From IMG/VR virus record IMGVR_UViG_3300026484_000162, positions 1-35,027 of that record: DNA of 35,027 nt; one strand, 5' to 3'. The number at the start of each line of letters is the position of its first letter. Position 1 is the stretch's first letter. Shown here piece by piece: positions 7,445 through 33,998 of this stretch. Below the pieces are notes generated by a model. The model did not search any database. It worked only from the letters and a program-made list of their open reading frames with translations, and was not told where the DNA came from. The position numbers were made by a program, and so were the translations under genes. This DNA comes from a virus.

Positions 7445-8140
7445 ATGCAAGAATTAATTAAAATAAGTCAAGAATTAATAGGTGCTGAAACAGTAAATAG
7501 TGTAAATGCAAGAGAGTTATATGAAACTTTAGAGATTAAAAAAGAGTTTGCTACTTGGATAAAATCTCAAATCAAATCTTTAGGACTTGAAGAAAATATA
7601 GATTATATTACTTTTAATACAACTGTTAAGAGAAAAACTGGTGCATCAATTCGTAAAGAATACATCATAACAACAGATACAGCAAAACATATCTCAATGG
7701 CAAGTCGTACAGCAAAAGGTAAAGAGGTTCGTACATACTTTATAGCGATAGAAAAAGAGTTTATCAAAGATTTACAAAATACAAAAGCATACATAGCAGG
7801 TGGCTACAAAAGCCAACTATCACAAAAAAATAAAAAGATAAGAGAGTTAGAAGCTAAATTACTATTGTTAGAAAGTGAAGCTGATAAGGTAGATTATAGA
7901 CTTAAAGCAAAAGCACTTTATCCTATCATCTTAAATCGTATAGAGAAGATAGAAGCAGAGTTTAGCAAAGAGTTCGCAGGTCAATCACTACAAGTATATA
8001 AAAACCTTTTAGAAGAGATAGTAAAACTTTTAAGTCGTGAAGCAAGAGTAAGTAGATTTATGACATTTTTCGGTAATGGTAGTGCAGTAAATAATGAAGT
8101 TATAGAAGATGATAGAAGAACTTTAACTTTTGGTAAGTAA
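7445..8140 (+). CDS. AntA/AntB-type antirepressor
   Basis: The product has 231 residues. The N-terminal 90 residues show the AntA/AntB antirepressor domain: VNARELYETLEIKKEFATWI, NIDYITF, then EYIITTDTAKHISMASRT.KGKEVRTYFIAIEKE. A coiled coil follows (about residues 115-135, NKKIRELEAKLLLLESEADK), then a C-terminal domain of unknown type. Proteins of this class bind and inactivate phage repressors or act as regulators from a strongly controlled promoter. It has its own promoter with operator-like repeats and lies inside the late region, not by cI, as part of the inserted cassette. Confidence 0.8.
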   Translation: MQELIKISQELIGAETVNSVNARELYETLEIKKEFATWIKSQIKSLGLEENIDYITFNTTVKRKTGASIRKEYIITTDTAKHISMASRTAKGKEVRTYFIAIEKEFIKDLQNTKAYIAGGYKSQLSQKNKKIRELEAKLLLLESEADKVDYRLKAKALYPIILNRIEKIEAEFSKEFAGQSLQVYKNLLEEIVKLLSREARVSRFMTFFGNGSAVNNEVIEDDRRTLTFGK

Positions 8141-15298: not shown

Positions 15299-16111
15299 AT
15301 GGCTCAGATAAGTACTAACATAGTTTATAGTATAAATAGGTTTAAAATACCATCTGATGAGATAGAAATAGGTGAAGTGTTTAACCCTATAGCTTCTAAT
15401 TTTAATGGATGGACTCAATATGAAGAAAATGCTAAAGCTTATGTGGAAGATGGGCTTTTAAAATTTCCATCTATCGAGGATGATGATATTAATTATTCTA
15501 TAATTTACAATGAAAATATACCAAATATTATAAAAATAGAATTTGATTGGAAAGTTGAATGTACTGAAGATGATAGTGCATTAGGTTTTTCTACTTCTGA
15601 AATTTTTGATTTTATGACTGGCTCGGTAGATTGGGAGCATAAAATTTTTGAATTTAAAAGTGCTAGTTATCCTACCTTTGTTTTTTTTAAAATGGAAGAA
15701 AACTCAAGTGGAGATGGTACTGGTTATTTTAAAAATATAGTTATCACTACATCAAATAAAATTTTTGAAATTAAAAACGGCAATTACATAAGAAGCAAAC
15801 TAAGCAGATTTCCAACTACTCTAAATCATAATAATTTTGAAGTAAGCAGATTTCCAACTACTCTAAATCATAATAATTTTGAAGTAAGCAGATTTCCAAC
15901 TACTCTAAATCATAATAATTTTGAAGTAAGCAGATTTCCAACTACTCTAAATCATAATAATTTTAAAATAAAAAACTTCACAAACCACAACACAACACAA
16001 CCATACATCATAAAAAACTTTCTAACCAAATCAAAAAAACACTATTACAGACTAGGCAGAGACCTAACAGTTCCACCTAAGAGAATTATTTTTAAAAACT
16101 TTGAGGACTAA
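15299..16111 (+). CDS. Tail protein with four tandem 14-residue repeats
   Basis: The protein has 270 residues. Residues about 45-155 look like a carbohydrate-binding-type jelly roll (FNGWTQYEENAKAYVEDG, IIKIEFDWKVE, GYFKNIVITTSN). From about residue 169 there are four copies of SRFPTTLNHNNFEV, identical at DNA level except the end of the last copy. The C-terminal 45 residues are basic and Asn/Lys/Thr-rich. It lies in the tail operon just before the hub gene, so a role in the tail tip or adsorption apparatus is likely. The basic repeat-rich end could be flexible or bind a partner. Confidence 0.5.
   Translation: MAQISTNIVYSINRFKIPSDEIEIGEVFNPIASNFNGWTQYEENAKAYVEDGLLKFPSIEDDDINYSIIYNENIPNIIKIEFDWKVECTEDDSALGFSTSEIFDFMTGSVDWEHKIFEFKSASYPTFVFFKMEENSSGDGTGYFKNIVITTSNKIFEIKNGNYIRSKLSRFPTTLNHNNFEVSRFPTTLNHNNFEVSRFPTTLNHNNFEVSRFPTTLNHNNFKIKNFTNHNTTQPYIIKNFLTKSKKHYYRLGRDLTVPPKRIIFKNFED
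15803..15970 (+). repeat. Four tandem 42-bp repeats within a tail gene
   Basis: Unit of 42 bp starting AGCAGATTTCCAACTACT, at 15803, 15845, 15887 and 15929. The first three are identical. The fourth diverges only at its last codons. 42 is a multiple of three, so copy number can change without shifting the frame. Confidence 0.95.
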
Positions 16112-21441: not shown

Positions 21442-21755
21442 TTAAAAAAATAGAGAGATTTCAAGGCGATACATATCCCATCATCTATGAGTTATCTATC
21501 AATGATGAACCAGCAGATTTAAGTGATGCGACAAGCATTGAATTTGCTTATGCAAAAAGAGGTGCAGAAGCTACTGTTATAAGTGGAACTATAGATGCAG
21601 ATAGACCAAATTTTGTGATATTTGAAATAAGTGAAGATGACTTTTCAGAACTTGGAGATTATAACTTTGATATTCAAGTGAAATATGGGGATTTGTCAAA
21701 GAGAACTTTTATAAAAGATAAGATTAGTATTTTAGAGGGGGTAAATAATGGCTAG
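21438..21755 (+). CDS. BppU-like small baseplate protein
   Basis: The product has 105 residues. FQGDTYPIIYELSINDEPADLSDATSIEFAYA followed by short strands and DISILEG at the end resembles the N-terminal domain of upper baseplate (BppU) and similar tail-appendage attachment proteins. It begins with an ATG overlapping the PKD gene stop by 4 bp and its own stop overlaps the endolysin start by 8 bp. Probably a chaperone or attachment subunit of the tip fibre. Confidence 0.5.
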   Translation: MIKKIERFQGDTYPIIYELSINDEPADLSDATSIEFAYAKRGAEATVISGTIDADRPNFVIFEISEDDFSELGDYNFDIQVKYGDLSKRTFIKDKISILEGVNNG

Positions 21756-22221
21756 TTTTAATCAAGCAATAGAAAAAACTCTTATAAATGAGGGTGGATA
21801 TGTAAATGACCCATCAGATGCAGGAGGAGAAACAAAGTTTGGTATATCTAAAAGAGCTTATCCAACCGTAGATATAAAAAATCTTACAGTAGATGGGGCA
21901 AAAGCTATCTATAAAAAAGACTACTGGGATAAGTTAAAAGCTGATGAAATAGTATCTCAAAAGGTAGCTAATGAATTATTTGATACAGCCGTAAACATGG
22001 GAGTTAGAACAGCAAGTAAACTCATGCAAGGTTGTAGTGGTGCTTATGTAGATGGAATTATCGGAACTCAAAGCTTAGAAACTATAAATGCTATGGATGA
22101 AGAATTATTATTACTTAGATTTAAGTTAGCAAAGATTTCAAGATATGCCTACTTAGCTAAAAAAAGACCAGCAAATAAAAAATATTTACTTGGTTGGATA
22201 AATAGAGCTTTAGAGGCTTAA
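21748..22221 (+). CDS. Endolysin, GH108 N-acetylmuramidase
   Basis: This 157-residue protein has the start INEGGYVNDPSDAGGETKFGIS, the signature of glycoside hydrolase family 108. The catalytic Glu is E15 in NEGGY. The C-terminal half (DGIIGTQSLETINAMDEELLLLRFKLAKISRYAYLAKK) matches the PG_binding_3 region of that family. It hydrolyses the beta-1,4 bond between MurNAc and GlcNAc in peptidoglycan. No signal peptide or SAR segment, so it needs holins for release. First gene of the lysis module. Confidence 0.9.
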   Translation: MASFNQAIEKTLINEGGYVNDPSDAGGETKFGISKRAYPTVDIKNLTVDGAKAIYKKDYWDKLKADEIVSQKVANELFDTAVNMGVRTASKLMQGCSGAYVDGIIGTQSLETINAMDEELLLLRFKLAKISRYAYLAKKRPANKKYLLGWINRALEA

Positions 22222-22222
22222 G

Positions 22223-22576
22223 ATGGATAAGTACGATTATTTTACAATAGTTATAGCAGGAGGGGCAGGAATGGCACTTTTGAGTAGAGCTTGGAAGATG
22301 GTTAATAATATTCATCTTCTAAAAAGAAAAAAAGATGGGAAAATTCATTGGACTTTTGAATTGACTTATCTTTTTATAAATAGTTTACTTGGTGGTGTGG
22401 TTGGTTTAGGTGCTTACATATTATTACAATATACAGGTTATATAACAGACCAAAGTGTCTTAACTTTTGTAAGTTGTATGTTTGCAAGTGCTAGTGGGGA
22501 AGTTTTTACACTTGTTCAAAGTAAAGTTATAAAAGCCGTTGAAGATATGAATCAAGGTGTAAATGATGGAAGATAA
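22223..22576 (+). CDS. Holin-like membrane protein
   Basis: The product has 117 residues. Hydrophobic segments at about residues 7-21 (weak), 48-69 and 78-97 separated by a basic loop (HLLKRKKDGK), with a charged C-terminus, match class holins of the LydA/phage holin 3 type. It follows the endolysin by 1 bp and overlaps the next gene by 14 bp. It probably forms membrane holes releasing the muramidase. With another holin-like protein at 23049, which one is holin and which antiholin is open. Confidence 0.6.
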   Translation: MDKYDYFTIVIAGGAGMALLSRAWKMVNNIHLLKRKKDGKIHWTFELTYLFINSLLGGVVGLGAYILLQYTGYITDQSVLTFVSCMFASASGEVFTLVQSKVIKAVEDMNQGVNDGR

Positions 22577-23039
22577 CAAAGAGATTGATTATAACGACAT
22601 GATACCAATGTATGTAAATAAAATTGATGAAGTTTATGATTTTATCAAGGAGCAAAAAACAATTCAAGAGATGCCGTTAAATAAGTATCTTAGTTATGCA
22701 GTATTTATCACTCTTGTTATGGTTGGTTTGATGTATTCTCAGATGGCAAATGTTCAAGAGAGGGTAAGAGTAAGTGAAAGCAAACTTGATTTTGTTCTTG
22801 AGTCTTTTGATAGTTATAAAAATAGTGTAAAAGCATTAAACGGAATAGTTTGCATCCAATGTCATAATACCCCTGATATGATGCTTCAAAATTTAGGGGT
22901 TGTTTTTAGTGATGTAGAAAGTTTTAAGGATTATGTTAGAACTGGGGGAAGACAAAAAAACAGCATCGTAATGCCACCGATACCAGCCGAGAGTGTAGAT
23001 GATTATACACTTGCAAGAATTTACAAAGCTTTAAAATAA
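22563..23039 (+). CDS. Membrane-anchored protein with c-type cytochrome motif
   Basis: The protein has 158 residues. A soluble acidic N-terminal part (1-40), a transmembrane segment at about 43-60 (LSYAVFITLVMVGLMYSQ), a short helix (62-92), and then a domain with C97-x-x-C100-H101 (VCIQCHNTP). M137 in IVMPPIPAES is in place for the sixth ligand, and DDYTLARIYKALK forms the usual closing helix. This is the plan of a mono-haem c-type cytochrome anchored by an N-terminal helix with the haem domain in the periplasm. It lies between two holin-like genes with overlaps on the upstream side. Function is unknown: a redox or energy sensor for lysis timing is my speculation. Alternative: a diverged motif without haem. 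Confidence 0.65.
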   Translation: MMEDNKEIDYNDMIPMYVNKIDEVYDFIKEQKTIQEMPLNKYLSYAVFITLVMVGLMYSQMANVQERVRVSESKLDFVLESFDSYKNSVKALNGIVCIQCHNTPDMMLQNLGVVFSDVESFKDYVRTGGRQKNSIVMPPIPAESVDDYTLARIYKALK

Positions 23040-23048
23040 GGGGAAAAG

Positions 23049-23504
23049 ATGGGAATGTTTGATTTTTTAAGTGGTGGATTAGTTGAAGCAGTTGGTAAGG
23101 TTGCTGATGAGTTAATAACAAGTGATGATGAACGATTAGAAAAAGAGAATGAAAAGTTAAAAGCTGAATTAAATTATAACTTGGAAAGTAAAAAGTTAGA
23201 TGCAGAAGAGTTAAAAACTTTTACACAAGATAAACAAGATGCTAGAAAGATGAACACGGATCTAATAAGTTCGACTGATTGGCTTGTTAGAAATACTGGT
23301 AGTCTTTTAGCTTGGTTTATCATTATAGGTACTTTTGTGATTGATTATATGGTGGCTTTTAATGGTTTGAAAGAGAGTGTAAAAGACAAAGATGTATTGA
23401 TGTTTATCTTAGGAAGTATGAACACATACACAGCAGGTGTAATTAGTTTTTATTTTGGAAGTTCTAAGACTGAAGCAGATGCTAGTAGAAAAGGTGCAGT
23501 ATAA
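23049..23504 (+). CDS. 3-TM-type phage holin
   Basis: A protein of 151 residues. A coiled, charged N-terminal part (25-65, EKENEKLKAELNYNLES) is followed by QDARKMNTD and W.VRNTGSLLAWF, and hydrophobic segments at about 84-105 and 115-137, ending GVISFYFGSSKTEADA. This is the pattern of the Holin_3TMs family (DARKMN, then WLVRNT, then YFGSS). A GGGG-rich ribosome-binding site lies just upstream. Likely the main membrane-hole former of the lysis module. Confidence 0.75.
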   Translation: MGMFDFLSGGLVEAVGKVADELITSDDERLEKENEKLKAELNYNLESKKLDAEELKTFTQDKQDARKMNTDLISSTDWLVRNTGSLLAWFIIIGTFVIDYMVAFNGLKESVKDKDVLMFILGSMNTYTAGVISFYFGSSKTEADASRKGAV

Positions 23505-29310: not shown

Positions 29311-29550
29311 TTACCATTTATAAACTGTGATGACTTCATTGTGTCTATCACTTCTTGAATATCTTTCATATTTTCCAAATATTCCATTACCTTTAGCTAC
29401 TTGCTTGTAAACTGAAAGATTAAGAGTTTTTTGAAATATGATGCCTTTTGTCGCAACTTTCCCATTTAAAGTATATTGTTGCATTGCCCAGTACCAAGAT
29501 GCAACAGCTATAAAAATAGCCATTGTTGCAAAAAGCTTAAATGTACTCAT
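29311..29550 (-). CDS. Small membrane or secreted protein
   Basis: Product: 79 residues. N-terminal hydrophobic segment (about 5-24, KLFATMAIFIAVASWYWAMQ) acts as signal anchor or TM. The rest is basic and polar (VYKQVAKGNGIFGKYERYSR). It starts inside the end of the TerB gene (overlap of 14 bp), so is coupled to it. Not recognised. Confidence 0.55.
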   Translation of the reverse strand: MSTFKLFATMAIFIAVASWYWAMQQYTLNGKVATKGIIFQKTLNLSVYKQVAKGNGIFGKYERYSRSDRHNEVITVYKW

Positions 29551-29977
29551 CTAGCTTTAAACCTAATTTTTGTGCGATAGTTTTTAACTCTTTTTCTTCA
29601 GCAGGTTCGCACTCACCATCTGCAAAAGCTACCTCAATAGCCATAACAAGCACCATCTCTGAATCTTCTTTGTTATCTTTAACATCAGCAATCTCTCTCA
29701 TAGTGTTGAGGCGACCCATACGATAACCACTCTCAAATACTTTACAAAGTTTGTCGAACTCTTGCATAGGCTCTGTACCAAATGCTTCAAGTGCTTTAGA
29801 GTTTTCTATAATACCAGCGATTGCTGTTATCTCTTCATCTTTTAGTTCACCATCTGCATAAGCGATTAAAGTCGCGGCTCCAACCATAGCTTCCATTAAG
29901 TCTTTGTTTTCAGCTTTTACTGATTTATTTGCAAGTTCAGTACCTGCACCTTTTAATTTCTTCATAAATCCAAACAT
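29537..29977 (-). CDS. TerB-family protein
   Basis: This gives a 146-residue helical protein. Two DGE motifs in homologous halves (D42-G-E in AYADGELKDEEI and D120-G-E in AFADGECEPAEEKEL) are the metal-binding signature of the TerB tellurite-resistance fold. TerB proteins are inner-membrane-associated stress proteins that also occur in phage defence and in phage-resistance (Ter) clusters. Here it stands alone with the small membrane protein downstream. RBS AAAGGATATAA precedes the ATG. An accessory (lysogenic) role is likely. Confidence 0.8.
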   Translation of the reverse strand: MFGFMKKLKGAGTELANKSVKAENKDLMEAMVGAATLIAYADGELKDEEITAIAGIIENSKALEAFGTEPMQEFDKLCKVFESGYRMGRLNTMREIADVKDNKEDSEMVLVMAIEVAFADGECEPAEEKELKTIAQKLGLKLDEYI

Positions 29978-32564: not shown

Positions 32565-33998
32565 CTACCAAATTAAAAGATTACAATCTACTAAATGGTC
32601 TTTTAACTTATCACCTTTAGAAGTCGCATCTAAATCATTTTTATAATAAAAACATTTATCATAGTTCTTTGATTTATTTGTAATTCTTTTATAAAAAGCA
32701 CTTGGAACAGCTATCTTATTTTTACCTATTCTTTTAGGGTCTTTAGAATATTCAACACCAATAACTACATTTGCACTACCTAGTTTATAAGCTATTTTTC
32801 TTTCAAGTTTTTCGGTTTTTATCCATGTTCTACGATTTACAGTAGGTGCTTGTGGGATGATGTTTGCCATACTGTAAACTTTTCTTAATGCTTTCTTATC
32901 ATAATCAAAAGAGGCATCAGGTGCTAAATGACCTCTATCATAGCCACTATGTTTATAGTCTTTAGATTTGCTTCTGTATTTTACTGGTATGTTTTTCTCA
33001 CTATAAAATTTAGGTCTTTTTTTGATATTTGTTTTATTTACTAAAGTCCCATCTAGTTTATAAGCAACATATAAAGCACCTTTCAATTCATCATTATAAT
33101 ATATTTTATAAATCTCTTTGTCTATCTCTCTATCATAATCATAATGTCTATTGTTTTCTTTCCATATTTTAAAATTTGTTTTAGATAAAACTAAATTATA
33201 TAGTTTTGCATTTAAAATATAATCAATATTTTTTAAATCAATATTTTTTATATTATTCTTTTTAAAATAAAAACTTCCATTAGCACCATAAATAGCAATA
33301 GAACTATCATTTAGAAGCTTTATATCTCTTACATTATATATTTTTCTATTATTGATAATGATATTAGGCTTATCAGCATATTCTAAATCTAATTTAGTTG
33401 GTTTAGAATCTTTAGTGTACTCTTTTGGGTCTAAAAATTTATCTGATAAATTATTTATTCCTACAGAGATAGATGCAGTTATTTCAGATAAATTTAATGA
33501 TGTATCTTTAAAATTAGAAGTAGTTTTATCTTTTTTTATAGCCTCTTTTTTTGTGGAGTGTTGTCGTTTTTCTAATAATTCTTTTGCTGTTGTAACTGCA
33601 TTGTCATTTATATAAACACTAGCACTATTAGATAATTTATTACCTACTATAGTTATAGTACATTCAAGTATTGCCCATCTAGTGTATTTAAAATCATTCT
33701 TACTTATATCCAAATAAGGACTTTGTTCGCCAAAAACAGTTCCTTGCTTTTTTGATATTAATTTTCCTTTAGTATTAGCACTTGTTTCTTTAAAAAGAGA
33801 ACAATTATAATGAGTTTGTATGTCATCATTTAAAATGATACTAGAATCAGTTTTTTTATTTCTTAGAAGAAAAGATACTTCAACAGATTTATTATCAGCT
33901 AAAGAACCATTTATCTTTAATAAATCAGCATCTTTAGGTGAAGTAATATAAGAAAACAATAAACTTTTTAATAAAATTAAAATTAAAAAATATTTCAT
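32565..33998 (-). CDS. Secreted DNA/RNA non-specific endonuclease (NUC domain)
   Basis: The product has 477 residues. An N-terminal signal peptide (MKYFLILILLKSLLFSY) predicts export. A long N-terminal part of unknown fold (20-300) precedes the C-terminal NUC endonuclease domain: D354-R-G-H357 (DRGHLAPDASF, the His is the general base), N379 (MANIIPQ) and N388 in VNRRTW, the metal and substrate residues. It would cut single- and double-stranded nucleic acid in the periplasm or outside. The ATG is 2 bp after the repressor stop, and the ribosome-binding site is inside the repressor end, so it is expressed with cI in the lysogen. This suggests superinfection exclusion or toxin use. Confidence 0.85.
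   Translation of the reverse strand: MKYFLILILLKSLLFSYITSPKDADLLKINGSLADNKSVEVSFLLRNKKTDSSIILNDDIQTHYNCSLFKETSANTKGKLISKKQGTVFGEQSPYLDISKNDFKYTRWAILECTITIVGNKLSNSASVYINDNAVTTAKELLEKRQHSTKKEAIKKDKTTSNFKDTSLNLSEITASISVGINNLSDKFLDPKEYTKDSKPTKLDLEYADKPNIIINNRKIYNVRDIKLLNDSSIAIYGANGSFYFKKNNIKNIDLKNIDYILNAKLYNLVLSKTNFKIWKENNRHYDYDREIDKEIYKIYYNDELKGALYVAYKLDGTLVNKTNIKKRPKFYSEKNIPVKYRSKSKDYKHSGYDRGHLAPDASFDYDKKALRKVYSMANIIPQAPTVNRRTWIKTEKLERKIAYKLGSANVVIGVEYSKDPKRIGKNKIAVPSAFYKRITNKSKNYDKCFYYKNDLDATSKGDKLKDHLVDCNLLIW

Follow-up and report, generated by a model that had tools for sequence, protein, structure and literature searches.

The question raised by this locus is what a gene for a c-type cytochrome-like protein is doing among the lysis genes of a phage, where it touches on a long-standing question about phages, namely by what means holins perceive the energetic state of the membrane. 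The window (the whole stretch of viral DNA that was analysed, 35 kb in length) encodes an integrase, an S24-type repressor and an antirepressor, and the virus is therefore probably a temperate phage. Its lysis genes lie on the plus strand in the order GH108 endolysin, three-transmembrane (3-TM) holin-like protein, cytochrome-like protein and second holin-like protein, and their coordinates are collected in Table 1. The original prediction had set the cytochrome gene between two holin-like genes, overlapping a holin-like gene and directly after the muramidase; both neighbours and the overlap were found, whereas the muramidase gene proved to be separated from the cytochrome gene by the first of the holin-like genes. 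The sequence of the endolysin has no evident membrane anchor, so that, extrapolating from phage lambda, the timing of lysis would be expected to depend on a canonical holin. The 3-TM partner matched nothing in Pfam, PHROG or NCBIfam, and the match of PF11351 to the second holin-like protein was below cut-off (E 0.0011). No relatives of the window holin-like protein were found in a scan of viral contigs, no convincing family was found for the cytochrome or the partner in PHROGs, NCBIfam or PADLOC, and a promoter and terminator scan of the window cassette gave a signal no better than that of shuffled sequences.

Table 1. Features of the lysis module and of the cytochrome-like protein encoded within it, in window coordinates.
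Feature	Position	Strand	Evidence
GH108 endolysin (muramidase) with PG_binding_3	21748..22221	+	PF05838 5e-26; PF09374 3e-12; PHROG_315 endolysin 2e-52
3-TM holin-like partner, class I holin topology	22223..22576	+	Three hydrophobic segments; 14-nt overlap with cytochrome gene
Membrane-anchored mono-haem c-type cytochrome-like protein, 158 aa	22563..23039	+	ORF, TM, CxxCH; about 20 relatives of the same plan
Predicted transmembrane signal-anchor, residues ~46-64	22698..22754	+	Hydropathy maximum 1.62; single TM in every full-length relative
Predicted periplasmic helical linker, anchor to haem domain	22755..22850	+	Sequence; long helix in AF2 models
CIQCH haem-attachment motif, residues 97-101	22851..22865	+	C, C and H invariant in all relatives
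Met137 in IVMPPIP, candidate axial haem ligand	22971..22973	+	Invariant in all relatives; aligns with host cytochrome c Met
Second holin-like protein, GTA_holin_3TM / PHROG 3427 type	23049..23504	+	PHROG_3427 holin 2e-7; PHROG_1544 7e-11

Elsewhere in the window, an AntA/AntB antirepressor gene (7445-8140, plus strand; PF08346, 1e-22) lies within the tail block ahead of the tape-measure gene, and an ORF in the tail region (15299-16111, plus strand) contains four tandem SRFPTTLNHNNFEV-like repeats. On the minus strand are a TerB-like protein (29537-29977; PF05099, 1e-13) and, adjoining the S24-type repressor, an Endonuclease_NS protein (32565-33998; PF01223, 8e-38) with an apparent signal peptide, probably a secreted phage nuclease.

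The anatomy of the cytochrome-like protein agreed with what had been proposed for it: a single hydrophobic segment near the N-terminus, the CxxCH motif and the distal Met were each confirmed in the ORF, and the linker joining the anchor to the C-terminal domain possibly forms a coiled coil. CxxCH occurred in only one of the 39 non-overlapping ORFs of the window, that of the 158-aa protein, and, given the composition of the window, the chance expectation for such a motif in 158 aa is ~6e-5; on this figure, and with the motif conserved in about 20 relatives, a chance occurrence was rejected. The gene is under purifying selection (dN/dS ~0.1 against relatives that are 84% identical).

The relatives, about 20 in number and strongly diverged, were found in Campylobacterota phages and prophages, with a median pairwise identity of 26% over twenty aligned members. 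Most were 18-27% identical to the window protein, while of the two copies at 84% identity one lay at the terminus of a phage contig of 110 kb (L002) and the other in a Helicobacteraceae MAG (L003). A protein search of the class of this MAG yielded two diverged copies, L007 and L010, both with phage-like neighbouring sequence, and when these were used in tblastn against 50,697 phage records, the matches, apart from one chance match in MT836637 that was discarded, were to Helicobacter prophages only (H. cinaedi, H. canis and H. jaachi, and later H. equorum), where every copy is annotated as 'hypothetical protein'. Profile searches found copies in 14 of the 121 genomes of the family that contains the Helicobacter matches, and among the 228 genomes of the L003 MAG family the MAG itself had the only real copy. 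Two HMM matches (L031 and L047) were rejected as F-type b-subunit-like proteins in ATP synthase operons, and four weak ones (L008, L009, L011 and L012) were set aside when they were not recovered with the family profile. Both Cys, the His, R126 and the Met were kept in all of the relatives, so that the loss of CxxCH that would have spoken against the original prediction was seen in no homologue; C97, C100, H101, R126, G128 and M137 were invariant across 17 aligned members, and each full-length member has one N-terminal transmembrane segment. In two distant lineages, DUF1353 (PF07087) genes adjoin the holin-cytochrome pair (L003, 891-1271; L007, 85-522).

Searches with PF13442 (Cytochrome_CBB3) matched eight of nine members (best E 1e-5, below the curated cut-off); the gathering cut-off of 27 bits was reached by no member, with the window protein scoring 15.2 and the best member 25.9. 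Several host proteins in the same genomes that have CxxCH and an ordinary cytochrome plan also fell below this cut-off, which is a sensitivity threshold and not a biological feature. Profile-profile alignment (hhalign) against 13 host class I cytochromes c gave P 1.9e-6, with the CxxCH and the Met in register. The AF2 model of the domain (90 aa, six diverse sequences) was all-helical (pLDDT 72.7, pTM 0.59), while the full-length model with three close sequences reached a pLDDT of 44. The best Foldseek neighbours of the domain model in the PDB were mostly c-type cytochromes (c551/c552/c6), with the cytochrome subunit of p-cresol methylhydroxylase ranked first (1dii_C, prob 0.94, E 0.95), and, with E values that were all ~0.95 or higher, the model no more than hints at a cytochrome c fold; a fold search of BFVD with the domain returned noise and no credible neighbour. 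Of the mono-haem cytochrome c plan that had been predicted, the class I cytochrome c-like domain thus stood on its motif, its Met and its profile match (P ~2e-6), and the fold stood at the moderate confidence of the model.

The family shares with class I mono-haem cytochromes c (PF13442; c551/c552/c6) the CxxCH, an R-x-G before Met-Pro and a C-terminal helix, and differs from them in its N-terminal anchor and helical linker, its very short domain (65-80 aa across the family) and sub-cut-off Pfam score, and in being phage-encoded beside a holin-like gene. A CcsBA-type fusion ORF (ResB plus cytochrome c assembly family) was present in all eight host genomes of relatives examined (8/8), so that attachment of haem to an exported CxxCH is to be expected in these hosts. 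We judge it very likely that the window family consists of true haem proteins, and the protein is most likely a tethered periplasmic mono-haem cytochrome c, as far as haem binding can be read from the sequence.

Two other readings of the domain bear on this evidence. The CxxCH could instead be a metal site or act in thiol-disulfide chemistry of the DsbC/thioredoxin-like kind, and the protein might also be a modified i-spanin; a non-haem protein of any of these kinds is in our view highly improbable. The domain profile does weakly match DsbC (E 0.0027), an enzyme whose active site is likewise CxxCH, but the modelled domain, all-helical at moderate confidence, is at 65-80 aa too short for a thioredoxin fold and unlike it, and the distant Met, for which a thiol enzyme would have no need, is as invariant as the Cys and His residues. 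A DsbC-like function was accordingly rejected, given the invariant Met and a model that departs from the thioredoxin fold. The haem domain might otherwise be a sensor of NO, CO or peroxide, with the ligand displacing the Met, or a peroxide scavenger, in either case a periplasmic protein whose target would be the envelope or the holin. A tethered single-haem domain on an extended linker is indeed a sensor plan, and microaerophilic hosts face NO and peroxide; against this, the Met is lacking in no member, a conservation that fits a six-coordinate redox protein better than a gas sensor with an open site, and no peroxidase family was matched, so that we regard a sensor or scavenger as unlikely.

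The linkage of the gene to lysis genes extends beyond the window. A 3-TM holin-like gene adjoins the cytochrome gene on the same strand in 16 loci, with the frames overlapping by 1-14 nt in 6 of the 15 partner-cytochrome pairs measured. The L002 contig, one of these 16 loci and from a phage of at least 110 kb that is otherwise unrelated to the window phage, ends inside the same partner, and the cytochrome-partner pair is therefore common to otherwise different phages. The partner profile matched 8 of 394 genomes, all eight of which also carry the cytochrome (hypergeometric P ~1e-14, a value that ignores the relatedness of the genomes). Alignment of the window holin-like protein with the Helicobacter partner family gave P 0.002 over 29 columns; the two appear alike in topology and position, a likeness that falls short of established homology. 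Like class I holins of the lambda S topology, the partner has three transmembrane segments, a charged tail and a place in a lysis cassette, but none of the holin families of Pfam, PHROGs or NCBIfam recognises it, and it is holin-like by topology only.

The neighbouring genes extend the cassette. GH108-type endolysins were found in five of the cassettes (L014, L019, L027, L038 and L052) and an M15 peptidase endolysin in L025; Rz/Rz1-like pairs adjoin the cytochrome gene in L016, L025 and L038, and an Rz1-like gene shares 4 nt with it in both L015 and L025. Most of these endolysin and spanin labels were read from the sequences of the relatives; Pfam backed those of the M15 peptidase and of one Rz1 (Rz1 LysC, PF23793, 3e-4). 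The family shares with Rz/Rz1 spanins an inner-membrane anchor, a helical periplasmic region and the same cassette; the anchor and helical linker recall Rz in particular, and L014 is matched by a PHROG Rz-like spanin (0.014). However, the family has a C-terminal haem domain, and separate Rz/Rz1-like genes are present in the same Helicobacter cassettes, as in the three loci where such pairs lie beside the cytochrome gene, and substitution for a spanin was rejected on these grounds. In four loci the arrangement departs from this pattern, with the cytochrome lacking an adjacent partner (L041 and L044) or the partner lying in rearranged DNA (L089 and L092), and all four look like remnants, the first two of prophages.

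Conserved linkage also bears on the view that the gene is a passenger (a moron) with no role in lysis, present in the lysis region by chance. Frameshifts in H. cinaedi, in the cytochrome gene of one prophage and the holin gene of another, would suit a passenger, but a dN/dS of ~0.1 and a linkage conserved in 16 loci across unrelated phages count against it, and its probability is accordingly very small indeed. We propose instead that the cytochrome and the 3-TM class-I-like holin constitute a lysis unit conserved among Campylobacterota phages.

Known lysis systems offer some guidance as to how such a unit might work. Lambda S is set off by a 40% drop in proton motive force (PMF), and KCN brings on lysis (PMC3166277), although it has been questioned whether cyanide acts on canonical holins by depolarising the membrane (PMC8385771). 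Our best explanation, drawn from gene neighbourhood and topology, is that the phage mono-haem cytochrome c ties the triggering of the holin to the respiratory redox state, a reading whose chances we place just short of even. Somewhat more tentatively still, the membrane-tethered cytochrome c may be a redox-gated regulator of the holin, through whose haem the lysis of Campylobacterota phages would read the host respiratory chain. Under this proposal the cytochrome would be made from the same operon as the 3-TM class-I-like holin, be tethered to the inner membrane on its periplasmic side by its anchor and helical linker, receive its haem from the host CcsBA system, and exchange electrons with the pool of periplasmic cytochromes that serves the host between bc1 and the cbb3 oxidase. 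Its redox-dependent state, in contact with the holin, would hold the holin back while respiration runs and let it go once electron flow or membrane potential drops. Bound haem, electron exchange, contact with the holin and the direction of the effect on lysis are all steps that we infer, and the effect on lysis timing could be of either sign, or nil. The nearest functional likeness is to periplasmic antiholins and other holin regulators, of which T4 RI is known (PMC8385771): these too are phage-encoded, lysis-related and membrane-targeted with a periplasmic domain. No sequence relation of the family to T4 RI was seen, and the family differs in carrying a haem motif and in that its regulation of a holin is a proposal.

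The main rival to a redox regulator of the holin is an auxiliary respiratory carrier, which would pass electrons to the terminal oxidase or replace a lost host cytochrome c and so keep up the PMF until late, with no direct contact with the holin and with its place in the lysis operon explained by late expression. Class I cytochrome-like proteins with an invariant Met are of the electron-carrier type, the hosts have many PF13442 cytochromes together with CcsBA, and phages carry cytochrome-type metabolic genes elsewhere, such as soxD (PMC8190135). Yet the gene is tightly linked to holin, spanin and endolysin genes and not to metabolic genes, it co-occurs with the 3-TM partner, and the family is a diverged one of the phages' own and no recent copy of a host carrier; we consider this alternative rather unlikely. 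The comparison with viral SoxD and other auxiliary metabolic cytochromes (PMC8190135) is instructive here, for these also place a c-type cytochrome motif on a phage genome, but SoxD is a recognisable host sulfur-oxidation enzyme, whereas the window family is the phages' own and linked to lysis genes. Should the cytochrome support respiration instead, it would remain a rarity, a respiratory gene of the phages' own that is bound up with lysis.

With regard to the redox regulator, the results suggest that Campylobacterota phages may tie the moment of bursting to host respiration, and a haem protein as a conserved neighbour of the holin offers a specific path, open to experiment, by which respiration could influence when lysis occurs. 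The open-access literature searched contained no description of a cytochrome within a phage lysis cassette, in agreement with what had been stated at the outset, although absence there is not proof; a genus-wide survey of Helicobacter prophages leaves a cytochrome unmentioned in its main text (PMC11840440). Lysis cassettes with a membrane-bound accessory are known, and it is the haem protein as a conserved part that appears to be new. The family, which now goes under 'hypothetical protein' in Helicobacter prophages, gains an annotation and can also serve as a marker for Campylobacterota phage lysis cassettes.

Two further observations concern the Helicobacter pairs. Among the H. cinaedi prophages (L014, 4393-4611; L019, 3804-4264), one has the holin-like gene frameshifted and the cytochrome gene intact, and another has the cytochrome gene frameshifted. 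The tails of several 3-TM partners (L015, L016, L019, L021 and L032) end in CxxCG (for example ICETCGQEVC and ICQTCGQ), possibly a metal or redox site on what is predicted to be the cytoplasmic side.
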